Shown here: one piece after another, positions 1-12,222 of the stretch
Numbering within the stretch: position 1 is the stretch's first letter
How the letters are laid out: each line of letters begins with the position of its first letter
Assembly (NCBI GenBank): GCA_020160935.1
Contig: JAIUPL010000005.1
Coordinates: 186,001-250,000 of the forward strand
DNA from: Bacteroidota bacterium
GTDB lineage: Bacteria > Bacteroidota > Bacteroidia > Chitinophagales > Saprospiraceae
DNA: 64,000 nt
Direction: 5' to 3'
Program-made: the position numbers and the translations under genes
Notes under the pieces: generated by a model
What the model was told of the DNA's origin: nothing
What the model saw: only the letters and a program-made list of their open reading frames with translations
Database searches by the model: none

Positions 1-2313
1 CGTGAGCACGAACACCACACTTCCCCAGCCTGCAAAGAGTCCGAGCGGCCGGATCGATTCCTGGCCGTATTCGATGCGTTTCAAAAGACCTGTAAGGGCA
101 TTTTCTGCCAAGGTCCGGTACTTTTCTGCGCCGGTAACCCGGTGGAGGTAGGCGAGAAACAATATTTCTCCCATTGCGCCGCTGAACAGGTCGTAGTACA
201 TTGGCATCAGTCGAAGGGTATTGTCATCCTCTGTTTTCAGGGCCATCCACTGTGCGTCGTTGGCGCCTTTGAACGCCTGTTCGTACAGGTAATCGCCTAC
301 GCGTATGGCTTCTGCCAACAGCATTTCATTAGAAGCAGGGGCCAAATCAGTGGCAAGCGCTTGTTTTCCAGCAGCCGCAGCCGTTTGATCTTCCTGTGCT
401 CTTGGTATTTGCAGGGAGGCCGTAAGCGACGCTTCTATCAACCAGAGTTGGCGTTGCATATCCTGGGTGCTGAGGAGTGACAGGCGCTGACGTACCAGTT
501 CGAGGCCGGTTTGTGAGAAAAAGTTTTCTACACAGGCATGGTCGGCATACCACAGATGGCGCGAATTCACGCGGGTGCTGAACAAGGGTACATCGCCGTT
601 GCGGAGGTCCTGTTTTTCAAATTTGATCAACTTTCGAATGAGTTGATAATCAGGGGCTACGGCCCAGAGCCAGTCGAAATGACGTTCCAGTTCGAGTGCA
701 TTTCGCTGAATTTGCGGGTGCCACGACTCATCGAGCAAATGGGAATACACAAATGTGTCGCGGAAAAGCACGCGCACGTCGTCGTTTCCAAAGCGGTTTA
801 ACAGGCCCGTTTGCGGGTCGGAAAGTTCATGGCCATGCAGCATCAATGCCTGGTAGGCCAGGGAAAAACCTTCCTGAATGGCTGAGATGTGTTCGGGGCG
901 CATTTTTATCCGTTGGCCATTCAGCATGGGGATATTGGCGCCGCCTTCCATGCGACCTGCCTGGCGTGTGATTTTTACCTCGTCGGTGCCGATGCCTTCC
1001 AGCGTACCTACTTTAAACAGGGTTGTCTGGCCTTCCGTATCCGACAACCCGCTGATGTCGAGCCCTTGATCTTCTTCCTTCAGGGAAATGCGCATGGGCA
1101 ATAAACCTGTACGCATCACGGATGCCTCGCCGGCCTGGTTAGTTTCGGTGCCGAGGGTAGGGAAGTAGGGGTGAAAGAACGATTCGAGGTCGATCAGCAC
1201 CGGATATTTGCCATTGGCTACGATGTTTTCGTAGTGGAAATCAGTGGCTTCCAGCGTGTACAACAGGGCAATGTAGGCGCCTGTCTGCTGGTAAAAATGT
1301 TGAACCTCGTTTTCAGAAGTGCAGGTAAGGTGCTCTATGAATTCTACCCAGCCGTGCGTGTCGGTGGTAAAAATCTGCATCGAGCGCAGGTCGAGGCCTG
1401 TCTTTTCATTGAGCCACTGCAATAATTCGCGGAAATGCACATCGATGTGCAAGGGGCGAGGCTTGTACACCACTTTCTGGCCGTTTTCAAAACGTACGAT
1501 CGCTACCGTACGGCCGCCACGGTGGGCATCGCCTTCGCCGAAGCGCACTTCGGTCAGCAGGCCGGGTTGGCCCAGCCAGGATGCGCTGATATGGGGAAAA
1601 TCGGCCACGAGGCGTTCGCAAAAAAGGCTGCTTTGTTCGATCCACTGATCGGTGACATGCGCTGCCTGGCGGATCAGCACCGGGTAATCGCGGTAAAAAT
1701 AATCGCGGATGCGCGGGGTGTTGAGTTGTGCAACGAAGTCGGCAAAACGCTCTTCTGATGTTGTTCCATGCAGTTTTTTGCGAAGTTTGAACACATTGAG
1801 TTCCAGCACCATGGTTTTGGTAACCATTTTGAGCAGGCGTTCCCAAAGGCTGGCCTGGAGCAGGCCTGCGGTGCGGCGCATATTGCCGAACAATTCCGGA
1901 TGGGCTTCTACCAGTGGTTCTATACGCGACTTCAGGCGTGCAGTAGCCTCGTGCAACAGGGGAATGAAAAGATTCAAAAAGCCGAGTTCCGGAAATTGGG
2001 GGCGATAAAAGTTGTGATCCGGAGCCGATCCATTGCCTTGCAAGCGAATGCGCAGAACGTCGTTTTTCCAGGCGAATGCTTTACCGGCATGTTTGCGCAG
2101 AAAATCCAGGTCGGGTTGGGCCACCATTTGCAGAAAATCTTCTGCAGACAGGCCTTCTTCCTGAAGTTTGATGGCAAACCATTCCGGTTTGCGGCGGAAA
2201 GGCGATTGCTGCTGCCAGCGTTCGAGCAGCCTCGATGCCTGGGCCGGCTGGTGTCCGGATTGGCGTATGGTTTCCAGGTGCCGGGTACGCTCGTGGATAA
2301 ACAAGGCGTTCAT
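1..2313 (-). CDS. lanM: Class II lanthipeptide synthetase LanM (3' end outside window)
   Basis: This bifunctional enzyme dehydrates Ser/Thr in a precursor core and then forms lanthionine rings with Cys. The frame is open from ATG at 2313 (in-frame TAA 24 nt upstream) to base 1, giving 771 residues; the rest lies outside. The dehydratase (DUF4135-type) domain has GDAHRGGR with Asp262/His264, VYKPR with Lys284, TDFHYEN with Asp358/His360/Asn363, IDLE with Asp375, and RVLFRDT with Arg514/Thr520. These match, with the same spacing, the CylM residues known for phosphorylation and phosphate elimination. From about residue 640 a LanC-like cyclase begins (DLFSGAMGEILFLAYLH, GLFAGWGS). Its zinc ligands would lie beyond base 1, so cyclase activity cannot be judged. 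It lies in line with three precursor genes and an ABC pump. It is read on the minus strand and is easily missed because it has no stop in the window. Identification is very secure. Confidence 0.95.
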   Translation of the reverse strand, partial: MNALFIHERTRHLETIRQSGHQPAQASRLLERWQQQSPFRRKPEWFAIKLQEEGLSAEDFLQMVAQPDLDFLRKHAGKAFAWKNDVLRIRLQGNGSAPDHNFYRPQFPELGFLNLFIPLLHEATARLKSRIEPLVEAHPELFGNMRRTAGLLQASLWERLLKMVTKTMVLELNVFKLRKKLHGTTSEERFADFVAQLNTPRIRDYFYRDYPVLIRQAAHVTDQWIEQSSLFCERLVADFPHISASWLGQPGLLTEVRFGEGDAHRGGRTVAIVRFENGQKVVYKPRPLHIDVHFRELLQWLNEKTGLDLRSMQIFTTDTHGWVEFIEHLTCTSENEVQHFYQQTGAYIALLYTLEATDFHYENIVANGKYPVLIDLESFFHPYFPTLGTETNQAGEASVMRTGLLPMRISLKEEDQGLDISGLSDTEGQTTLFKVGTLEGIGTDEVKITRQAGRMEGGANIPMLNGQRIKMRPEHISAIQEGFSLAYQALMLHGHELSDPQTGLLNRFGNDDVRVLFRDTFVYSHLLDESWHPQIQRNALELERHFDWLWAVAPDYQLIRKLIKFEKQDLRNGDVPLFSTRVNSRHLWYADHACVENFFSQTGLELVRQRLSLLSTQDMQRQLWLIEASLTASLQIPRAQEDQTAAAAGKQALATDLAPASNEMLLAEAIRVGDYLYEQAFKGANDAQWMALKTEDDNTLRLMPMYYDLFSGAMGEILFLAYLHRVTGAEKYRTLAENALTGLLKRIEYGQESIRPLGLFAGWGSVVFVLT

Positions 2314-2396
2314 AATTATATATTTAAATATGAATTATACTAATAATAAAAAGAGTACACTCTATCTGAATTAATAACGGCTACTATTACCATAGG

Positions 2397-3080
2397 TTAG
2401 TACCCGAATTTTTTTCCAAGGCCTGCTTCAAATTCTGCAAACGGCATTTCCGGGTATCCGCTGGGCGTTTCTTCGAAAGTGCCAGCATTGTCGGTGGTGA
2501 GTTCCCGGAGTGTGTACAACACTTCAGTGGTACCGTTTTTAATGGTGTATTCGAGTGGGAAACCTTTGAGGGATGACGGAATGCCGGCAATGGCGAAATT
2601 GGGAAGTTTGATTTCGTCCGTTACAAAAAGGTGGTATTCGCGTACGCTGCCATCTTCCCGCAGGGTTTCTACGATGGCTTTATGACAGGTAAAGCCATTG
2701 ATAACTTTGGTAGTAGCCGGCTCGTAGGTGATGTGGGTGTTTTCTTCACGGTCTTTCAGGCGGAGGCGTTGTATGGAGTCGGCCACAGCGACGTATATTT
2801 TTTTACCCATCAGGTCGAGGTAGAGCGCGGAGCCGTGGTTTTCAGTATTGGTAAAGCGTTGAAACTGAACGGCATTGTTCATCATGCTGGTCACACTTTT
2901 CACCACACCGTTGTGGGTTTGAACGAGCATGGTAGCGCCGGAGAGTTGTTGTGCGGCCTGTGGGTTTTCCGATTTTACATCTGTGACCTGAAAGAGGGCG
3001 CGGCCTTCATTTTGTGCGCTTGCAACATAGGTGCTCAGCGCAAAGAGGGTGAAAACAACAAGTACAAGAGACTTTTTCAT
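2397..3080 (-). CDS. Secreted protein of unknown role inside the lanthipeptide cluster (DUF4412-like)
   Basis: This is a 227-residue protein with a clear signal peptide (MKKSLVLVVFTLFALSTYVASA, cut near AQ). The rest is soluble and beta-rich, with the segments NGFTCHKAIVE and EYHLFVTDEIKLPNF. These resemble the small periplasmic DUF4412/GLPGLI-type proteins of Bacteroidota, whose function is unknown. There is no lipobox and only one Cys in the mature part. It lies 83 bp before lanM and about 110 bp after the permease on the same strand, so it probably belongs to the operon. By position it could be an accessory immunity or periplasmic chaperone protein, but nothing in the sequence proves that. 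Confidence 0.7.
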   Translation of the reverse strand: MKKSLVLVVFTLFALSTYVASAQNEGRALFQVTDVKSENPQAAQQLSGATMLVQTHNGVVKSVTSMMNNAVQFQRFTNTENHGSALYLDLMGKKIYVAVADSIQRLRLKDREENTHITYEPATTKVINGFTCHKAIVETLREDGSVREYHLFVTDEIKLPNFAIAGIPSSLKGFPLEYTIKNGTTEVLYTLRELTTDNAGTFEETPSGYPEMPFAEFEAGLGKKFGY

Positions 3081-3191
3081 GGTTGAATTTTTATTTTAAA
3101 TGACGATATGTTGTGATAGATAGAGGCATAGTCGGGGTGGCCCTGAAAGAGCAGTTTCATGGAGTTGGACAACATCAGGATCAGGATACGT

Positions 3192-3989
3192 TTACGCCTT
3201 GTCCTTTACATATGCGCTGTAATACATGACAAATACGCTGATAATCAGGAAGTAAAGCAGGCTATACCAGAGAAAAACCGGCCAGCCAGCCCAATCTGCT
3301 ACATTCAGATTGCCTCGGGAATAATGTACCCGCAGCATCGGATATGCATAGGGCACATACATACTTTTGCTCCATCCATCGGCCAGGGTAGAAAATACTA
3401 CGGTGGAAAACATGCCGATCAGAATAGGCAAGGTATAGTTCGGGAGCAGCCACGACAGCACAAATTGAACAGCGAAAATAGACGAGGTGGCGATCAGGGT
3501 TTCGAGGGTTGCCCGGGTCAGCGCACCCCAGTCGTAGCCATAGGCATAAAATTCCAGGGTGGGTTTTATCCATCCCAACAGCCAGCCATTGAGCACGGAA
3601 AGTGGCGCGATCAGCAGTAAAATAGATACAACGAGCGCCAGTGTGAACAGGTATTTGCCGGCTATCACCGTCCAGCGAGGCGCAGGGTAGGAGAGTAGTT
3701 GCTTCCAGGCGTTCGCTTTTTGCTCGATTTGCATCGACTGGCTGGTGATCATGATAATGGCCATGGGCAGGATTACAAAACAAAGAATATTGAAGGTGCG
3801 ACTAACCAGGGAGGGCCATGGGTTGGCGGGGGCTGCGCCCGATTCGGCGCCTACGGTGTAGTAGTACAAGAGGAAGACGATCGCGGTCACCAGCACAGGC
3901 AACAAGGCGGTAGTAAGCAACAGGCGCGACCCCCGGCTTTTCAGCCATTCCGCCACCACAGCGTTTTTGATATGGATCAGGTTGTTCAT
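3192..3989 (-). CDS. ABC-2 type permease, LanE/G-like (putative lantibiotic immunity)
   Basis: This 265-residue polytopic membrane protein has about six hydrophobic segments, e.g. LLLTTALLPVLVTAIVFLL, VISMPLF-like stretches around residues 60-80 and 105-130, and LYFLIISVFVMYYSAYV at the end. It has no ATPase motifs. Size and layout fit the membrane subunit of ABC-2 exporters such as the LanE/LanG, BcrB and MutE/G families. It starts 12 bp after the ATPase gene, so the two should be co-translated and form one pump. In Gram-positive lantibiotic producers such pumps remove the peptide from the producer membrane. Here that role is inferred from the context of three precursors and LanM. A general ABC-2 exporter is the alternative. 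Confidence 0.85.
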   Translation of the reverse strand: MNNLIHIKNAVVAEWLKSRGSRLLLTTALLPVLVTAIVFLLYYYTVGAESGAAPANPWPSLVSRTFNILCFVILPMAIIMITSQSMQIEQKANAWKQLLSYPAPRWTVIAGKYLFTLALVVSILLLIAPLSVLNGWLLGWIKPTLEFYAYGYDWGALTRATLETLIATSSIFAVQFVLSWLLPNYTLPILIGMFSTVVFSTLADGWSKSMYVPYAYPMLRVHYSRGNLNVADWAGWPVFLWYSLLYFLIISVFVMYYSAYVKDKA

Positions 3990-4001
3990 AGTGTGTGCCG
4001 C

Positions 4002-4904
4002 TTATTCGTTGATGTGAAGGAAAAGGTCTTCGAGGTTTTGGTGAACTACCTTGAGTTCGTAAATTTTTACCTGATTTTGAACCAGTTGTTGGGCTATTTC
4101 GGGGATGGTTTCTTTGTCGTTGAGGGTAACACGCACGGTTTTTCCATTGCGGTACACTTGTCGATGATGTTGTAGCAGGAGGGTGTTGGTTTTGTCGAGG
4201 TCGTTGGTTTCCAGTGTTACCTGAATGCCATTGTCCGTTTGTGCACGAAGCCCGTGGATGCTGCCTTCAAATAGTTTTTTCCCTTTTTTGATGATACCCA
4301 CCTGGGTGCAGATCAATTCTATTTCGCTGAGCAGGTGGCTGGAAAGGAAGATGGTTTTTCCAAAATCCTGGTGAAGGCGCTGAATGACGGTTCTGATTTC
4401 TACAATGCCTTGCGGGTCGAGGCCATTGGTGGGTTCGTCGAGGATCAGGAGTTCGGGGTCGTGCAGCAGCGCATTGGCGAGTCCGAGGCGTTGTTTCATA
4501 CCCGTGGAAAATGCCTTGGCCTGCTTGTTGTGTTCTTTTTCGAGGCCTACGATTTCGAGTACTTCCCCGATGCGGCTTTTCGAAATTTGCCTGTACACAG
4601 CAGCGATTCGCAGGTTCTCATACGCGCTGAGGTGTTCGTAAATGGAAGGGCTTTCGATGAGCGCGCCGCAGCGGCGGTATATTTCTGCGCGGTGTTCCTT
4701 CAAAGTTTTTCCGAACAGGTGTACATGCCCGGCGGTGGGATGAAGCAAACCAAGCAGCAGTCGGATGGTGGTGGATTTTCCGGCGCCGTTGTGCCCCAGA
4801 AAACCGTACACCGAACCTCGGGGTACTGACAACGAAAGATCGTGTATAGTGGCCGGGGCGTTTTTATAGCCGAATTGCAGTTGGGTTGTTTCGATGATAT
4901 TCAT
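4002..4904 (-). CDS. ABC transporter ATPase, LanF/BcrA-like (putative lantibiotic immunity)
   Basis: This 300-residue nucleotide-binding subunit has Walker A GHNGAGKST near residue 37, the signature FSTGMKQRLG near 138, Walker B LLILDEPTNGLDP near 155 and the switch His in SSHLL near 192. The C-terminal extension of about 90 residues after the ATPase fold is typical of the BcrA/LanF self-protection group and of ABC-2 drug exporters. It directly precedes the permease gene (12 bp). It follows the precursor genes, separated by a perfect 12-bp hairpin. Expected role: energising export or immunity to the lanthipeptides. It is not the C39-peptidase LanT type, because no peptidase domain is present; a LanT would have to be outside the window. 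Confidence 0.92.
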   Translation of the reverse strand: MNIIETTQLQFGYKNAPATIHDLSLSVPRGSVYGFLGHNGAGKSTTIRLLLGLLHPTAGHVHLFGKTLKEHRAEIYRRCGALIESPSIYEHLSAYENLRIAAVYRQISKSRIGEVLEIVGLEKEHNKQAKAFSTGMKQRLGLANALLHDPELLILDEPTNGLDPQGIVEIRTVIQRLHQDFGKTIFLSSHLLSEIELICTQVGIIKKGKKLFEGSIHGLRAQTDNGIQVTLETNDLDKTNTLLLQHHRQVYRNGKTVRVTLNDKETIPEIAQQLVQNQVKIYELKVVHQNLEDLFLHINE

Positions 4905-4920
4905 GGTTCAGTTCGTTTGT

Positions 4921-4962
4921 AAAAGCCGGGGCGCGGTTGTGGGGGACGTTGCCCCGGCTTTT
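4921..4962 (-). terminator. Hairpin between precursor genes and lanFE-like genes (leaky terminator or processing site)
   Basis: A perfect 12-bp inverted repeat (AAAAGCCGGGGC / GCCCCGGCTTTT) encloses an 18-nt loop. Read on the minus strand the stem is followed by TTTTAC, and on the plus strand by six T. It sits after the last precursor gene and just before the ABC ATPase start. In known lanthipeptide operons a partial terminator after lanA keeps precursor mRNA in excess; that role here is inference. Confidence 0.75.
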
Positions 4963-5101
4963 TTGCTCAAAATGATGTGCTGTTCCAAAGGTTGTTTATA
5001 CAGATTTGATACTATCCAATGATTTGTATATATTCCTTTTAATAAAGTCAACTTGAAGTATGCCTCGATAAGTGGCCTTCAGAACAGGTGTTTTGTCGGA
5101 A

Positions 5102-5314
5102 TCAGAAACTGAAGATGTCTTTCAGGATATCCCAGCAACTTTTGCCCGTGCCGTTGCATTCGCCGCTCAGAGTGCAAACATATCCTGCCGAATTGACGCC
5201 GCCTGTGATTTCGCTCATCGCGGTTTCGTTGACGTCTACATGGTTGGCAGGAGAATCGCTTTGCTGGGTAGCGTCGGCATTTTTCCAGGATTCGATCAGT
5301 TGATTTGTTTTCAT
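5102..5314 (-). CDS. Lanthipeptide precursor peptide 3 (LanA3)
   Basis: This 70-residue peptide starts with MKTNQLIESWKNAD. It has an acidic leader of 39 residues ending AMSEITGG and a 31-residue core, VNSAGYVCTLSGEC followed by NGTGKSCWDILKDIFSF. The core has Cys8, Cys14 and Cys21, and Ser/Thr at 3, 9, 11, 17 and 20. CTLSGEC closely matches the lipid II-binding CTLTxEC ring of mersacidin and the TxSxEC ring of the lacticin 481 group. It is the third of three aligned paralogues, 9 bp after precursor 2, and is followed by the hairpin. Leader length and the Gly-Gly site are identical in all three. Cleavage after GG would need a C39 protease, which is not seen here. The modification pattern is inferred. 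Confidence 0.93.
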   Translation of the reverse strand: MKTNQLIESWKNADATQQSDSPANHVDVNETAMSEITGGVNSAGYVCTLSGECNGTGKSCWDILKDIFSF

Positions 5315-5323
5315 TACTTGAAA

Positions 5324-5539
5324 TTAGATGAAGATTGCAAAGAAGGCATCGATGAGATTGCAACTTTTACCGGAAAGGTTGCATTCGCCACTTACAGAGC
5401 AAACGGCGCCTGCGGAATTTGCACCACCGATGATTTCGCTCATAGCGAATTCGTTCACATCTACGTTGCTGGCTGGGGAATTGCTTTGCTGTTGGGCGTC
5501 GGCATTTTTCCAGGATTCGATCAGTTGTTTTGTTTTCAT
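5324..5539 (-). CDS. Lanthipeptide precursor peptide 2 (LanA2)
   Basis: This is a 71-residue peptide. An upstream in-frame extension to 5608 runs through the hairpin and is rejected; the ATG at 5539 gives MKTKQLIESWKNAD, which aligns with its two paralogues. The leader is 39 residues ending AMSEIIGG. The 32-residue core begins ANSAGAVCSVSGEC and continues NLSGKSCNLIDAFFAIFI. It is the most divergent copy: Ser replaces Thr at core position 9, Asn replaces Trp at 22, and the tail is strongly hydrophobic. The three Cys positions (8, 14, 21) are kept. It could be a two-component partner of the others or simply a variant product. Confidence 0.92.
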   Translation of the reverse strand: MKTKQLIESWKNADAQQQSNSPASNVDVNEFAMSEIIGGANSAGAVCSVSGECNLSGKSCNLIDAFFAIFI

Positions 5540-5572
5540 AGCAAATAAAAATGTCAGGATGGCTTTCTGAAT

Positions 5573-5598
5573 GGAGGAAGGCACAGAGGCCTTCCTCC
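5573..5598 (-). terminator. Hairpin between precursor 1 and precursor 2
   Basis: A perfect 10-bp stem (GGAGGAAGGC / GCCTTCCTCC) with a 6-nt loop lies in the spacer between the first and second precursor genes. No long T-run follows on the minus strand, so it looks more like an mRNA-stability or processing structure than a full terminator. Confidence 0.6.
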
Positions 5599-5624
5599 TA
5601 TACAGCAAGTAATGTTGGATTCAA

Positions 5625-5843
5625 TTAGAACAGGTCCTTGATGAAGTCAGAAACGGCATCCCAGCAGTTTTTGCCCGAAGAAACGCATTCGCCGCTCACG
5701 GTGCAGATGTAGCCTGCAGAGTTGGCGCCGCCGGAGATTTGTTGCATAGCGGTTTCGTTTACGGCTACTTCGGCAACAGGTGCTTCAACTTGAGCGTTGA
5801 CGTCGGCGTTTTTCCATGCGTTGATCAGATTGTTCGATTTCAT
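5625..5843 (-). CDS. Lanthipeptide precursor peptide 1 (LanA1)
   Basis: This 72-residue peptide has leader MKSNNLINAWKNADVN... ending AMQQISGG at residue 39. The 33-residue core begins ANSAGYICTVSGEC and continues VSSGKNCWDAVSDFIKDLF. Cys are at core 8, 14 and 21. Ser/Thr at 3, 9, 11, 16 and 17 are candidates for dehydration. TVSGEC fits the TxSxEC lipid II-binding consensus exactly. It is first in the precursor array, directly after the outer-membrane protein gene. The leader is richer in Val/Ala/Glu than in copies 2 and 3, which are closer to each other, so copies 2 and 3 probably arose by a later duplication. Confidence 0.94.
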   Translation of the reverse strand: MKSNNLINAWKNADVNAQVEAPVAEVAVNETAMQQISGGANSAGYICTVSGECVSSGKNCWDAVSDFIKDLF

Positions 5844-5953: not shown

Positions 5954-8419
5954 TCAAAATTGTTCTTTCTCCACTTCCTTCAAGTCATTGTTCTTCACCG
6001 ATTTTTTCTGCCCCTGTTTCAGCGGGCCCGCTTTCCCGAACCTGTAATTGAACCCCAGGTTGACCATTCTAAATGGCACATAAGTCGTTTTGGTCTGGCT
6101 GAATCCGGGGCCTTCCAGCGTTGTTCCGTAGGCTACCTCGTGTCGGAAGGGGTTGACAACGACCAGCGTGACGGCGCCATTTTTGTGCAAAACGGGCTGG
6201 CTGAAAGTGGTTTGCAGGGTGTAAAATGAGCGGGTCGTGCCTTGTATGCTCAGTTGCGGAGCGGCATAGGCGGCCAGCATTTCTGCCGAAAACCCGCTTT
6301 TGAATTCCAGTCCGCTCATCACGAACGTGTTAAATTGCAGGCCATGGTTGCCGACGCCGCTGATGTGCAGGCTGTTGTCGGTTTCAAAGTAGTTGAAGTT
6401 TCCGCCGCCCCTTACCGACCAGATACTGGTGAGTTGGTAGGTGAGGTATGCATTCGCGCCAGCCAGCCAACTGGAACCCAGATTGGAGTAGAGCGAAGTG
6501 GCGATGCCATCGGAGCCCGTGGTGGTCAGTTTTTCTATGACGTCATGGCTTCTGTAGTAAAAAGTGCTGCCATTCAGGAATCCGCCTTTAAAAGGCATGG
6601 CAAAACTCAGGTCGAAAATGTCGGTCAGTTCGGGGCGCAGGTACGGATTACCCAGGGTAACATTCAGCCGGTCGGCTGTATTGGCAAACGGATTCAGTTG
6701 TGCGATGCCCGGGCGCTGAATCCGCCGGGTATAACTCCCGGTCAGGGTGGCTGCGTTTTGAAAGGTGAATGACATCGAAGCGCCAGGATTCCAGGTGAAG
6801 TAATCGTCATGAATGTCAGCATGGTTTTGAATGCGGTTGAGTGTATGTTCCAGCCGATTCCCGATGCGGAAGGACCATTTTTTGCGCCACTGAAAACGCG
6901 TTTCGAGGTATGCCGCCGAGATATGCTGGGTGTAATCGAGTTGTTGCGTCCGTTCGGGGTTGGGGTAAAAACCGGATCGATCGTTTTCCCATTGCTCATA
7001 GGTTGCGTCAGAGCCGATCCATCGGATGATGTGTTTGGCGCCGGTTTCCATTTGTATATTCGGTCTGATGGGCTGCGAATAATCGGTTTGAGCGGTGAAT
7101 TCGTCATTCAAAGCCAGGTTGAGTGCATTTTCTGCAAAAAGGATTTCCTGCGATGACACGGGACGCTCGTACAGCGTATAGTCGAGGCGGTTGCGCAGGT
7201 GTGTCCACTGCATCGAGGCGCTCCACTGCTGCTGGGGTTTGCTGAAAGTACGCTTGTAGTCGTTGGTCCACTCGAAGTTCAGGTCGCGGCGATTATTGTC
7301 TATGGTTCGGTCAAAAACACTGGTTTCGGTGTTGGCTCCACTTTTTGTTTCTTGCATGATATGGATGAGTCCGTCGGCATACACCCGATTATTGCTCCAG
7401 CGCAGGCTGCTGGAAAAAGAGTGCCGAATATTGGGGTCGTAGTCGACACCGATCAGCGCAGTGGCTGCCATTCTGCCGGCAGTGGCGGCGCCTTGCTGGG
7501 TCAGCAGCGTACTTCCGGTTTCGGTTATGGTATTCCGGACGAGGCTGTTGTGCAAGTCCATGGGGAGCATGCCATTCAGACCGAGCATGGAATTGACGCC
7601 TACTTTGGCGGTACGGAGGTTGAGGCTGGCGCTGGCCGCATTCTGTATGTTGCTGCCCGCGGCATTCACCGTGCCGTTGTATCCTTCTATCTGTTTCTTT
7701 TTGGTAATAATATTGATGATACCGGCAGTGCCTTCCGCATCATATCGGGCCGAGGGCATGGTGATGACTTCCATACGGGCTACCTGTTCGGCGGGTATGC
7801 TGCGCAGGGCATCGGCCATGTTGGCGGCAAATACGCCCGAGGGCTTGCCATTGATTAATACCTGTATGTTTCTACTGCCTCTGAGCGACAGGTTGCCTTC
7901 TGCATCTACCTGCACCATGGGCACTTTGCGCATGAGTTCGTTGAGGGTTTGATTGGGGGCGCTTTTGTCGCGGTCGACATTGTACACCAGGCGGTCGATC
8001 TGCTGTTCGATCACTGTTTTTCGGGCGCTTATTTCTATTTCTTTGAGGACGGAACTGGAGGGTTTTAGCAGTACTTGTCCGATGTTTTGCACCTGGTTGC
8101 CGGGCAGCATTTCAATATTGTCGAGGATTTTGGTTTCGTAACCGACAAAGACAAATTTCAGGGTGTATTTTCCGGGTGGCAGCCCTTCGAGACTGAATTT
8201 TCCTTTGTCGTCGGTGATGGTGCCATTGATGATTTTCTGAAAGTTTTTTCTTTGCAAGGAGACGGATACATACCCCATCGTTTCAGCACTGAGCGAGTCG
8301 GCTGTGGCGCCTTTGATGCTGCCGCCGGAAGCGGGACCGGCGGCAGGCATCTGGGCGAAAAGAATACCCGGGGAAATCAGAATAAATATCGTTATCAAAT
8401 ATGAGTAAATATTTTTCAT
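5954..8419 (-). CDS. TonB-receptor-like outer-membrane beta-barrel protein
   Basis: This 821-residue protein has a signal peptide (first about 22 residues) and a CarboxypepD-regulatory-like domain at about residues 30-120 (GKFSLEGLPPGKYTLKFVFV). A plug-like domain follows at about 125-240 (LNELMRKVPMVQVDAEGNLSLRGS, IQVLINGKPSG, AGIINIITKKK). The rest, from about 250, is a long beta-barrel of the outer_membrane_beta-barrel_3 type (PF14905-like). Proteins of this group are common in Bacteroidota; most substrates are unknown. It is on the same strand, 110 bp upstream of the first precursor gene. It may therefore be part of the cluster as an outer-membrane export or uptake port, or just a neighbour. 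No convincing TonB box was identified. Confidence 0.88.
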   Translation of the reverse strand: MKNIYSYLITIFILISPGILFAQMPAAGPASGGSIKGATADSLSAETMGYVSVSLQRKNFQKIINGTITDDKGKFSLEGLPPGKYTLKFVFVGYETKILDNIEMLPGNQVQNIGQVLLKPSSSVLKEIEISARKTVIEQQIDRLVYNVDRDKSAPNQTLNELMRKVPMVQVDAEGNLSLRGSRNIQVLINGKPSGVFAANMADALRSIPAEQVARMEVITMPSARYDAEGTAGIINIITKKKQIEGYNGTVNAAGSNIQNAASASLNLRTAKVGVNSMLGLNGMLPMDLHNSLVRNTITETGSTLLTQQGAATAGRMAATALIGVDYDPNIRHSFSSSLRWSNNRVYADGLIHIMQETKSGANTETSVFDRTIDNNRRDLNFEWTNDYKRTFSKPQQQWSASMQWTHLRNRLDYTLYERPVSSQEILFAENALNLALNDEFTAQTDYSQPIRPNIQMETGAKHIIRWIGSDATYEQWENDRSGFYPNPERTQQLDYTQHISAAYLETRFQWRKKWSFRIGNRLEHTLNRIQNHADIHDDYFTWNPGASMSFTFQNAATLTGSYTRRIQRPGIAQLNPFANTADRLNVTLGNPYLRPELTDIFDLSFAMPFKGGFLNGSTFYYRSHDVIEKLTTTGSDGIATSLYSNLGSSWLAGANAYLTYQLTSIWSVRGGGNFNYFETDNSLHISGVGNHGLQFNTFVMSGLEFKSGFSAEMLAAYAAPQLSIQGTTRSFYTLQTTFSQPVLHKNGAVTLVVVNPFRHEVAYGTTLEGPGFSQTKTTYVPFRMVNLGFNYRFGKAGPLKQGQKKSVKNNDLKEVEKEQF

Positions 8420-9089: not shown

Positions 9090-9161
9090 CTTGATTACCA
9101 TAACCCTTTTTTGACTAATTGCCTGACCATCAATTAGTTGCTGAGAAGCCCACGCTGTATT

Positions 9162-10682
9162 ATGGACACACTTCAGGAAATTGTACTCCTGCTTGACCGC
9201 TATAAAGTCAGGCAGATAGAGGTGCTTACCAATGCCTCTGATGGAAAAGAAAACCGTTATTTTGAGTGTTATTCCGGTATGCGAGATGGTCGCTGGAGTT
9301 CGGATGACGAGATGGCGGAGTTCTTCGGTTTCGAACCTGGAAGCAAAGCCTTCACCCGTTTCAGAAATGAGGTGAAGAAAAGACTTCAAAATTCTTTACT
9401 CTTTATCGATACCAGCCTGCCCGAGTTTAACGACTACAATCGGGCAGCCATAACGCTGACCCAGCAATGGGCCATTGCGAAGGTGCTGATGCACCGGGGC
9501 GCCAGAAAGGCATTTGTAGAAATGGCGGAACAAATCCTTAAAGTGGCCATCTACTTTGAATTCCTGGATATAATTGTCGAAGTATTGCAATCGCTTATTT
9601 CCTCCATTATGCCTTTCCCACAGTACAATAAAGACTTTCCACGCTACATGAAAATGTATGAAGAGTATAAAGATGCTCTCGATGCAGAAAAGGAGGTTTG
9701 GAAAACTGTCAATACCGTGATGTGGCCACTGGTGACTCAAAAAGGTGTACCAGCGCATCACCTCGAACCCATCGTTCAAGCAACGGAAAGACTCCGACCG
9801 CTGGCAGAAAAATATTCCTATATTATTCTTCAGTCCAATTTTCGGAACCTCGAATTATTTAGTTATATATTCAACAAAGACTGGGAAAAGGTGCTGGTGC
9901 TCTCCAGAGACGCAAAGAACTTTCTGGAAGCCAAGCCGGCCAATCCCGTTTTTCACATCCTGAAATTTGCCCAGCAGGAAGCCGCCAGCCTCGTCATGCT
10001 GGCCCGCTTTGATGAAGCACGTACCCTGTGCCGGGAATCTATGTCGCTGCTCACGGAAGGTATCTCCATGTGGTTTAAATTCTGGGAAATGGAAACCGTG
10101 GCAGCATTTCAGGCCGGATGTTATGAAGACGCCTGGCATGCGGTAAAGCAGGCCATGAAACACCGTCGCTTCGAAACCATTTCTGCTATGGATCAGGAGT
10201 CGTGGCGGGTGTTTTACGGGTACCTGTGCCTTATGTCGCGCTTGCAGATTTTACCCTTGTCGTCTCGAGAAAAAGGGGAGGCCGAAAAATTCAGGCTTTC
10301 TTCCTGGCTCAACGATCTGCCACTGCATAGCCAGGATAAAAGGGGCGCAAACATACCCGTGCTGATTCTGCAAACCTTGTTTCTGTTAACTGAAAAACGT
10401 TATGACGAATTCGAAAACCGCACAGAAGCATTGCGCAAATACCGGCAGCGAAACCTGGAAGCAGATTCCCAGCATGTGCGTACCGACTGTTTTATCCGTT
10501 TGATGGAATCCATACCCAAAAATGGTTACCAGTTAAAACGCATCTCACAAGAGGCTGAAAAATGGCTGGAAAAGATGCAAATGAGCACCACCAATATCCT
10601 CGACTACTCTTACGAACTGGAAATAGTACCCTATGAAAGGCAATGGGAATGGACCATCGATGTGCTAAAGTGCGTTAAATGA
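9162..10682 (+). CDS. Unrecognised 506-residue helical protein, tandem copy 1
   Basis: The start at 9162 (MDTLQEIVLLLDRYKVRQIEV) is chosen over 9138 because it matches the start of the next gene and gives both proteins exactly 506 residues. There is no signal peptide and no membrane segment, so it should be cytoplasmic. The first 95 residues contain GMRDGRWSSDDEMAEFFGF and FTRFRNEVKKRLQNSLLFID. The rest is rich in amphipathic helices with repeated Ala/Leu/Tyr/Glu patterns (MHRGARKAFVEMAEQILK, FDEARTLCRESMSLL), reminiscent of TPR-like solenoids. I cannot assign a family. It is followed after 19 bp by a close paralogue and is divergent from the lanthipeptide cluster. Confidence 0.85.
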   Translation: MDTLQEIVLLLDRYKVRQIEVLTNASDGKENRYFECYSGMRDGRWSSDDEMAEFFGFEPGSKAFTRFRNEVKKRLQNSLLFIDTSLPEFNDYNRAAITLTQQWAIAKVLMHRGARKAFVEMAEQILKVAIYFEFLDIIVEVLQSLISSIMPFPQYNKDFPRYMKMYEEYKDALDAEKEVWKTVNTVMWPLVTQKGVPAHHLEPIVQATERLRPLAEKYSYIILQSNFRNLELFSYIFNKDWEKVLVLSRDAKNFLEAKPANPVFHILKFAQQEAASLVMLARFDEARTLCRESMSLLTEGISMWFKFWEMETVAAFQAGCYEDAWHAVKQAMKHRRFETISAMDQESWRVFYGYLCLMSRLQILPLSSREKGEAEKFRLSSWLNDLPLHSQDKRGANIPVLILQTLFLLTEKRYDEFENRTEALRKYRQRNLEADSQHVRTDCFIRLMESIPKNGYQLKRISQEAEKWLEKMQMSTTNILDYSYELEIVPYERQWEWTIDVLKCVK

Positions 10683-10701: not shown

Positions 10702-12222
10702 ATGGATACGCTTCATGAAATTGTACACTTGCTCGATCGGCATAAAGTCAGGCAGATAGAAGTGCTTACCAATAACGCCGGCGCTAAAGAAAATCGATAT
10801 TTCGAATGTTATGCCGGCATGCGCGACGGCCGCTGGAATACGGACGACGAGATGGCAGAACACTTTGGATTTCTGCCAGGAAGCAAAGCCTTCACTCGAT
10901 TTAAAAACGAGTTGAAAAAAAGGCTCCAAAATTCCTTGCTATTTATAGACACCAGCCTTCCCGAGTTTAACGACTACAATCGGGCCGCCGTAACACTTAC
11001 TCAGCAATGGGCCATCGCGAAGGTGCTGATGCACCGGGGCGCGCGAAGGGCTTATGTAGAAATGGCAGAACAAATCCTGAAAAGCGCTATCTATTTCGAA
11101 TTTGTTCCCCTGGTGGAAGAGGTATTGCGCACACTGATCACGGCTATTCTGCCTTTTCCGCAATACAACAGAGACTACCACCGCTATCTGGAAATGCTGG
11201 AAGAATACCAGGCGGCACATGATGCCGAAAAAACCGTTTGGCGGGCTGCCAATAGCCTGATCTGGCCTCTGGTGGCCAGAAAAGGCCAGGCTGCGGAGTT
11301 TATTGGGCCCATTCGCAAGCAGGTCGAATTATTGCGCCCCTTGGCACAACGATATCCCTACACAGTACTTCAATCCTACTTCCGTTCCATTGAAATGTAT
11401 GGATATATATTTTGCAACAACTGGGAATCAGCCCTGGCCCTTGCAGAGGATTCCAGAAACTTCTTTCATTCCAAATCGGGAAAACCGGTTTATTACGCCC
11501 TGAAATTTGCCCAGTTGGAGTCGGCATGCCTCGTCATGCTGAACCGTTGCGATGAAGCGCGGGCCTTGTGCCGGTCATCCATGGAGATGCTTACGGAGGG
11601 TATTGCCATGTGGTTCAAATTCTGGGAAATGGAAACGGTCGCGGCATTTCAGCAGGGTGCATACGAAGACGCGTGGCATTTTGTGAAAGATGCCAGGAAG
11701 CACCCCCGATTCGGAGGTATTCCCAGTATGGACCAGGAGTCGTGGCGCGTGTATTACGGTTACCTATGTCTTCTGGCGCGCCTGGATCTGCTGCACCTGC
11801 AAACCAGAGAAAAAGGAGAAACTGAAAAATTCAGGCTAAATTCCTGGTTGAATGACCTGCCGCTTTACAGTCAGGATAAACGAGGGGCTAATATTCCTGT
11901 ACTGATATTGCAAACGCTGTTTTTACTGACAGAGAAACGGTATTCGGAATTTGAAAAACGCACAGAAGCCCTTCGCAAATACCGGCAACGCAACCTGCAT
12001 GCCGAATCAACGCACGTGCGCACAGACTGCTTTATGCACTTGCTGGAATCTATTTCCAAAAACCGGTATCACTTGAAACGTATCCAGAAGGACGCCGAAA
12101 AATGGCTGGCCAAAATGCGCATGAGCCCTACCAATATTCTCGATTACAATTACGAACTGGAAATAGTACCCTATGAAAGGCAATGGGAATGGGTACTCGA
12201 GGTACTGCGAAAAAATGCCTGA
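10702..12222 (+). CDS. Unrecognised 506-residue helical protein, tandem copy 2
   Basis: This is a close paralogue of the preceding gene over its full length. Long identical blocks include NDYNRAA, TQQWAIAKVLMHRGAR, DKRGANIPVLILQTLFLLTE and YELEIVPYERQWEW. Divergence is highest in the middle, about residues 150-290. It is probably a TPR-like helical repeat protein acting in the cytoplasm. The two genes are 19 bp apart and likely co-transcribed. Retention of both copies at equal length argues that each is functional. No enzyme motif or DNA-binding motif is evident. The 3' end abuts the convergent deacetylase gene with no gap (stop codons at 12222 and 12223). Confidence 0.85.
   Translation: MDTLHEIVHLLDRHKVRQIEVLTNNAGAKENRYFECYAGMRDGRWNTDDEMAEHFGFLPGSKAFTRFKNELKKRLQNSLLFIDTSLPEFNDYNRAAVTLTQQWAIAKVLMHRGARRAYVEMAEQILKSAIYFEFVPLVEEVLRTLITAILPFPQYNRDYHRYLEMLEEYQAAHDAEKTVWRAANSLIWPLVARKGQAAEFIGPIRKQVELLRPLAQRYPYTVLQSYFRSIEMYGYIFCNNWESALALAEDSRNFFHSKSGKPVYYALKFAQLESACLVMLNRCDEARALCRSSMEMLTEGIAMWFKFWEMETVAAFQQGAYEDAWHFVKDARKHPRFGGIPSMDQESWRVYYGYLCLLARLDLLHLQTREKGETEKFRLNSWLNDLPLYSQDKRGANIPVLILQTLFLLTEKRYSEFEKRTEALRKYRQRNLHAESTHVRTDCFMHLLESISKNRYHLKRIQKDAEKWLAKMRMSPTNILDYNYELEIVPYERQWEWVLEVLRKNA

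Follow-up and report, generated by a model that had tools for sequence, protein, structure and literature searches.

A stretch of 64,000 nucleotides from a Bacteroidota genome, referred to here as the window (G000:C21:186001-250000; genome of 5.84 Mb in 51 contigs, 97.9% complete), carries a class II-type lanthipeptide gene cluster. Its synthetase belongs to a LanM lineage that lacks the zinc site of the cyclase domain and that probably still closes rings. By sequence, the cluster is a complete class II-type gene set, with a LanM dehydratase, a C39 exporter and double-glycine precursors carrying a TxSxEC motif. The first-pass annotation of the window had described three precursor genes with lipid II-type cores, a LanFE-like ATP-binding cassette (ABC) pair, a secreted protein and LanM, in this order on one strand. 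All are present, on the minus strand, and the lipid II-type motif (TxT/SxEC) reads TVSGEC, SVSGEC (Ser replaces the first Thr) and TLSGEC in the three cores. Following the DNA to the left of base 1, as that annotation had proposed, completed LanM and revealed a C39-ABC exporter. Its tacit assumption of a canonical zinc-dependent LanM did not survive this extension, as all three ligands are replaced.

The complete LanM comprises 1067 amino acids in a single open frame that ends at C21:185110. The part within the window matches TIGR03897 with 620 bits (cut-off 304) and PF13575 with 387 bits; the full-length protein scores 386 bits against PF13575, 195 bits against PF05147, 345 bits against LicM2 (6st5) and 225 bits against CylM (5dzt). 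Both domains of a class II synthetase, the DUF4135 dehydratase and the LanC-like domain, are present. The dehydratase catalytic residues K284, D358, H360, N363, D375, R514 and T520 are all retained, residues with roles in dehydration being described for CylM (PMC4550811), and the P-loop GDxH pair also aligns. The zinc ligands Cys, Cys and His are replaced by A932, T979 and M980, which lie outside the window; WCHGAPG and LCHG of LicM2 align with WAHGAPG and LTMG. H867 and H933 are the counterparts of His219 and His277 of LanCL1, the two histidines described as acting on the enolate in LanC chemistry (PMC9934072). According to the same source, zinc lowers the thiol pKa in canonical LanC, and the enolate is held stable by one residue and receives its proton from a histidine; of these three elements, the aligned residues indicate that zinc alone is gone from the window LanM.

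Three other accounts of the enzyme were rejected. A truncated or frame-shifted LanM is ruled out by the one 1067-codon open frame on a 254-kb contig, and a sequencing error or assembly slip at the zinc site is ruled out because 11 related LanMs in other records have lost two or three ligands. The idea that a LanM dehydratase has acquired its cyclase from class III is excluded by the LanC domain itself, which scores as LanM (289 bits, against 84 for LanKC and 72 for LanL). Four zinc-bearing control domains gave 307-340, 54-100 and 73-113 bits, respectively, so that the window domain shows a comparable, if slightly narrower, margin; LanKC scored above LanL in four of four zinc-less domains tried, and LanL above LanKC in all four controls. 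The Pfam scan of LanM listed neither the lyase nor the Ser/Thr kinase domain of LanKC, its N-terminal half being DUF4135. The first-pass annotation had held that a truncated LanM without zinc ligands would speak against the cluster; the ligands are indeed missing and the protein is not truncated. Their absence does not refute a lanthipeptide product, because the dehydratase residues, both LanC histidines and the ring residues of the precursors are conserved.

The loss of the zinc site is shared by a group of related enzymes. A scan of genome contigs with the window LanM yielded 36 loci. The alignment comprised 51 LanM-like rows, of which 44 came from these loci and six from an order-level search, the last being the query itself. 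Twelve rows combine a lost zinc site with an intact dehydratase, nearly intact in L027. Besides the query they are L019 and L020, 91 and 93% identical to it and derived from metagenome-assembled genomes (MAGs) of Bacteroidota and Saprospiraceae; L021 from a Flavobacteriia MAG; L022, L023 and L045 from Kordia; L024 from Lysobacter telluris; L027 from a Bacteroidota MAG; L047 and L053 from Chryseobacterium; and L048 from Epilithonimonas. The 11 relatives are therefore ten Bacteroidota and one Lysobacter. An alignment of 41 of the 44 locus rows set 11 zinc-less enzymes against 30 controls, all of which retain Cys, Cys, and His or Cys at the ligand positions. In the zinc-less rows, position 932 is Ala or Ser, 979 is T, S, L, C or I, and 980 is M, F, A or S. 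H867 and H933 are kept in all 11 (29 and 27 of the 30 controls, respectively), and H525, E529 and Q1044 also occur in all 11, as opposed to 0, 3 and 2 of the 30 controls. It is very improbable that these are canonical zinc-dependent class II enzymes that bind the metal through other residues: the overall sequence and predicted fold are LanM-like, but 11 of the 12 members have Cys or His at no ligand position, and L027 has one Cys.

The pattern of H525, E529 and Q1044 agrees with a single origin of the zinc-less LanMs, which we favour without regarding it as proven. A first tree of 45 of the 51 rows, which left out six fragments or very divergent rows, separated the three Weeksellaceae, which sit on a long branch, from the rest, so that the 12 did not form a clade; constraining them to one clade on the same set was not rejected by the approximately unbiased test (p 0.483). 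A second tree of 39 rows, from which six further long or short rows including L012 and L013 had been dropped, united the 12 in one clade with a Shimodaira-Hasegawa-like approximate likelihood ratio support of 98. Two further LanM-like proteins, L013 and L082, have lost the zinc ligands and carry an altered dehydratase motif (DLIADN and DLISDN); they lie outside the clade and are not counted.

Selection on the cyclase domain is about as strong as on the dehydratase. Relative to L019 and L020, the ratio of nonsynonymous to synonymous substitution rates (dN/dS) lies at 0.05-0.07 in the LanC domain, as against 0.06-0.09 in the dehydratase, and these low values indicate a cyclase domain under constraint rather than in decay. 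That the whole cluster is decaying and non-functional, as the lost metal ligands might suggest, is hardly credible: the frames are open, dN/dS does not exceed 0.19 in any of the nine genes for which L019 and L020 were compared, and the same zinc-less state occurs in isolates of Kordia and Chryseobacterium.

The precursors retain what ring formation demands of a substrate. Each window precursor has a double-glycine leader and a core with Ser/Thr and Cys. Their matches to the plantaricin C family (E 4e-5, 1e-4 and 1e-3) all fall below the cut-off, as do the best scores against curated peptide-family models (24.1 bits against 29 for NF000539, 17.7 against 23.5 for TIGR03898 and 15.7 against 46 for NF040664). 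At least one precursor lies upstream of LanM in all 11 related zinc-less loci, and [ST]xS[GA][ED]C...C is found in 20 of 20 upstream precursors, the window's three included. The A4-type precursors, located distally in the window genome, L019 and L020, do not have the motif and are not part of this count. Because the profile that detected the related precursors was built from the three of the window, it favours look-alikes. This circularity is answered by a scan with the bare motif and no profile, which agrees: among 11,443 short open reading frames (ORFs) of the loci it gave 20 matches, 18 of them in zinc-less loci (17 precursors and, in L021, one 31-residue ORF of the opposite strand), and the other two come from a single Chitinophaga tropicalis record that is present under two entries (L008 and L028) and whose LanM has zinc ligands. 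The residue before the motif varies (N or F in L047, H in L027, P in L024, Y in L048 and L053), with a Cys slightly further upstream in the L048 and L053 precursors. The first Cys of the window cores is thus not universal, and the constant part consists of two Cys with two hydroxyl partners, a composition that fits two rings of the mersacidin type. For mersacidin, the motif TxTxEC is cited as binding lipid II (PMC7268733).

Two peculiar precursors were also observed. The fourth precursor of the window genome, A4, has a leader of the same type as A1-A3 and an unrelated, proline-rich core with two Cys; it also occurs behind HlyD in L019 and L020. In Chryseobacterium sp. JM1 (L047:7777-8474), three precursors lie in a row, one with a tandem duplication of the core (SGYINTVSGECNSSGRSCWKALKD twice).

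From the conserved residues and substrates we infer that the zinc-less LanM probably forms rings. The enzyme would phosphorylate Ser and Thr of the core and eliminate the phosphate, giving dehydroalanine or dehydrobutyrine. The core would then shift to the metal-free LanC barrel. As in class III LanKC, the Cys thiol would add there without the help of zinc, with H933 and H867 serving to stabilise the enolate and to protonate it. One (methyl)lanthionine ring would result over [ST]xSxEC and a second would join the motif Ser to the last Cys, with an extra N-terminal ring where the first Cys is present. By analogy with the respective families, the C39-ABC exporter would cleave after GG and export the product via the HlyD-like adaptor, the TxSxEC ring would bind lipid II in competing bacteria, and protection of the producer would fall to the LanFE-like pump, perhaps together with the GLPGLI-like protein.

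Several points weigh against such zinc-free ring closure. Mutants of lacticin 481 synthetase in the zinc ligands reportedly keep dehydration and are impaired in cyclisation. Positions 979 and 980 are variable in the zinc-less rows, with no new thiol-activating residue evident, and L027 has lost two of the three ligands (one zinc Cys remains) and carries Ser in place of K284. ThurKC, a metal-independent class III cyclase, shows that a LanC barrel is able to form rings in the absence of metal, and it is described with Phe770 and Asp771 at two of the ligand places (PMC10604976), a pair that is not reproduced in the zinc-less LanMs. Without an Asp as in ThurKC, the thiol would, if these enzymes cyclise, need some other means of activation, or a site ordered well enough for it to react without help.

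The main rival to zinc-free cyclisation is an enzyme that only dehydrates. The zinc-less barrel would merely hold the substrate, rings would arise spontaneously, or Cys would stay free or form disulphides after export, and the product would be a dehydropeptide or a mixture of isomers. The loss of all three thiol-activating ligands speaks for it, as does CcaM, a LanM-type enzyme whose zinc-less cyclase domain is needed for its reconstituted activity, reported as that of a dehydratase (PMC10676384); Michael addition is moreover described as possible without an enzyme (PMC2843593). We nevertheless hold this explanation to be unlikely, given that the clade shows no variation in the two residues known to serve Michael addition, the enolate acid and the enolate stabiliser, that purifying selection on LanC about equals that on the dehydratase, and that ring donors and acceptors are retained in every upstream precursor.

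A separate LanC cyclase, encoded elsewhere in the cell and acting in trans, could also close the rings. Further LanC-like domains, including free-standing LanC-like proteins, occur in the genomes of seven of the 11 relatives, which likewise counts against a cyclising LanM. In Epilithonimonas bovis (L048:8435-16245), a class I LanB of 1015 aa and a LanC of 397 aa come directly after the zinc-less LanM, possibly a class II/class I hybrid locus. The window genome, in contrast, contains a single PF05147 match, which is LanM itself, and the same holds for L019, L020, L024 and L027, with the completeness figure applying to the window genome only and not to these four relatives. A LanC in trans is thus very unlikely in the window genome but may act in other members of the lineage.

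The preferred reading, a zinc-less LanM that still forms rings, can be extended to a broader proposal, which we regard as evenly poised between right and wrong. One lineage, spread across Bacteroidota and reaching Lysobacter, would have lost zinc once and would make lipid II-binding, mersacidin-type products by metal-free Michael addition, amounting to a second zinc-free route besides that of class III.

The remaining genes of the cluster are given in Table 1. Identical gene order in the two MAGs L019 and L020 indicates that the arrangement is not due to chance.

Table 1. Features of the cluster and its surroundings (plain numbers are window positions)
Feature	Coordinates	Strand or location	Description
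Precursor A1	5625..5843	-	72 aa; leader ends GG; core ANSAGYICTVSGECVSSGKNCWDAVSDFIKDLF; weak TIGR03898 and plantaricin C matches; homologues in L019/L020
Precursor A2	5324..5539	-	71 aa counted from ATG; core ANSAGAVCSVSGECNLSGKSCNLIDAFFAIFI; longer TTG start also possible
Precursor A3	5102..5314	-	70 aa; core VNSAGYVCTLSGECNGTGKSCWDILKDIFSF
GC-rich hairpin, putative attenuator	4921..4962	-	between A3 and ABC ATPase gene; TTTT at end of 3' arm
ABC ATPase, LanF-like	4002..4904	-	300 aa; PF00005; top NCBIfam match TIGR03740, below cut-off
ABC-2 permease, LanE/LanG-like	3192..3989	-	265 aa; PF12730; weak MutG match, below cut-off
Secreted GLPGLI-like protein	2397..3080	-	227 aa; TIGR01200 E 2.6e-4, below cut-off; kept in L019/L020
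lanM, N-terminal 771 of 1067 codons	1..2313	-	dehydratase domain and start of LanC domain; remainder to G000:C21:185110
TonB-dependent-receptor-like outer-membrane protein	5954..8419	-	821 aa; PF14905; possible member of same island as lan genes
C39-ABC exporter	C21:182901-185099	neighbouring DNA left of window base 1	PF03412 107 bits, with ABC domains
HlyD-like adaptor, short	C21:182020-182817	left of window base 1	265 aa
Precursor A4 (fourth)	G000:C21:181741-181965 = L004:1241-1465	-	74 aa; core IGTPVYQTGCIPDPFPFPKKTTTSIWCPPDDILF; located via its leader

The terms LanFE-like and GLPGLI-like denote resemblances, because the family matches fall below their cut-offs: the ATPase scores 233 bits against TIGR03740 (lantibiotic protection; cut-off 310), the permease 34 bits against MutG (cut-off 117) and the secreted protein 21 bits against GLPGLI (cut-off 50), with no Pfam family match. 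The exporter contains the DCG Cys and the HFVV and DPAHG motifs, which we take to have their usual roles in C39 exporters. A second C39-peptidase protein (G000:C25:96842-97201, within a 738-residue open frame) outscores the cluster's own C39. Precursors A1 and A4 have a common start context, AAATTTTTTAAGC-ATG. The hairpin behind A3 has a predicted RNA folding energy of -22.6 kcal/mol (z -4.5), and, as L019 and L020 retain the inverted repeat, it may act as an attenuator that raises the abundance of the precursor transcript. It was absent from the minus-strand list of a consensus terminator scan of the region, where terminator-like sites numbered 11 as against 8.2 in shuffles, showing no enrichment. 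In three related loci, small proteins that appear membrane-like by eye follow LanM (L021:11815-12483 and L022:11811-12455) or LanT (L047:14010-14570) and are possible immunity proteins; the L047 protein has a weak DoxX_2 match below the cut-off, and those of L021 and L022 match no Pfam family. Further along the window, two adjacent plus-strand ORFs of 514 and 506 aa (9138-10682 and 10702-12222) look like paralogues by eye.

Class II synthetases are uncommon in the phylum, as the first-pass annotation had stated: PF13575 occurs in nine of 395 sampled genomes of the phylum and 10 of 396 of the order, the window genome being counted in both. Within the genus, three of 41 genomes have a full LanM, and three more have just 27-30% matches to the LanC part. 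The neighbouring outer-membrane gene has orthologues in exactly those three genomes (its own and two others, at 86 and 88% identity), with a 34% match in a fourth. A flanking histidine kinase, by comparison, has matches of at least 65% identity in 38 of the 41 genomes and weaker ones in the other three. This contrast between patchy LanM and outer-membrane genes and a widespread kinase suggests that the lan unit and the outer-membrane gene may form an island that was acquired, or lost elsewhere. No plasmid match to precursor A3 was found, and one contig of a viral collection encodes a LanM at 29% with zinc motifs kept. Zinc motifs are also present in other Bacteroidota LanMs (L028 of Chitinophaga tropicalis, L059, L062 and L070), and LanM genes have been published for two Prevotella strains (PMC10352776).

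Zinc-less LanM-like proteins have already been published (LanMbC/CcaM, CA_C0082 and 'D-Unk'), and what appears to be new is a lineage with mersacidin-type precursors. Class III is otherwise described as the one class whose cyclases lack the zinc residues that the others conserve (PMC7268733, PMC10604976); CcaM and CA_C0082 stand as special cases. In a published tally, 47 predicted peptides lie next to 'D-Unk' synthetases, in which DUF4135 goes with an undefined cyclase triad; the tally may include relatives of the lineage. The literature searched, which excludes most subscription papers, yielded neither a zinc-less LanM with mersacidin-type precursors nor a description of the lineage; nothing was found on Saprospiraceae together with lanthipeptides, and the texts consulted on Kordia and lanthipeptides mention no LanM. 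A LanM lineage from which the metal ligands alone have gone, and in which the other active-site residues and the ring residues of the substrates persist, represents a natural experiment on the role of zinc in lanthionine formation. It also points to mersacidin-type peptides of Gram-negative producers, including named Kordia and Chryseobacterium strains, and suggests that a mining filter demanding the CHG motif would miss such clusters.

Set beside known systems, the precursors resemble those of mersacidin, plantaricin C and lacticin 481 in the T-x-S/T-x-E-C motif and the double-glycine type leader, but they differ in the Gram-negative host, the Gly inside the motif (SGEC), other C-terminal tails and scores below the model cut-offs. 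Dehydrazole pathways employ LanMbC/CcaM, in which a cyclase domain without zinc is likewise joined to a DUF4135 dehydratase; CcaM is described as acting on YcaO-made azole peptides without needing a leader (PMC10676384), whereas the window precursors are mersacidin/plantaricin C-like with ring Cys, and the whole window genome has no match to YcaO (PF02624), for which control genomes did match. CA_C0082 of Clostridium acetobutylicum is also LanM-like with the zinc motif missing, but it is reported as shorter, with a degenerate dehydratase and a link to agr quorum sensing (PMC10301443). ThurKC shares with the window enzyme a LanC barrel without zinc and a small residue at the first ligand position (Ser726 in ThurKC, Ala or Ser in the zinc-less LanMs), but its dehydration machinery is different, and the window LanC domain scores as LanM and not as LanKC. 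LicM2 (6st5) and CylM (5dzt) agree with the window LanM in domain order, dehydratase residues, predicted fold, leader type and the acid histidine of LanC, and differ from it in the three cyclase zinc ligands, all of which the window enzyme has lost.

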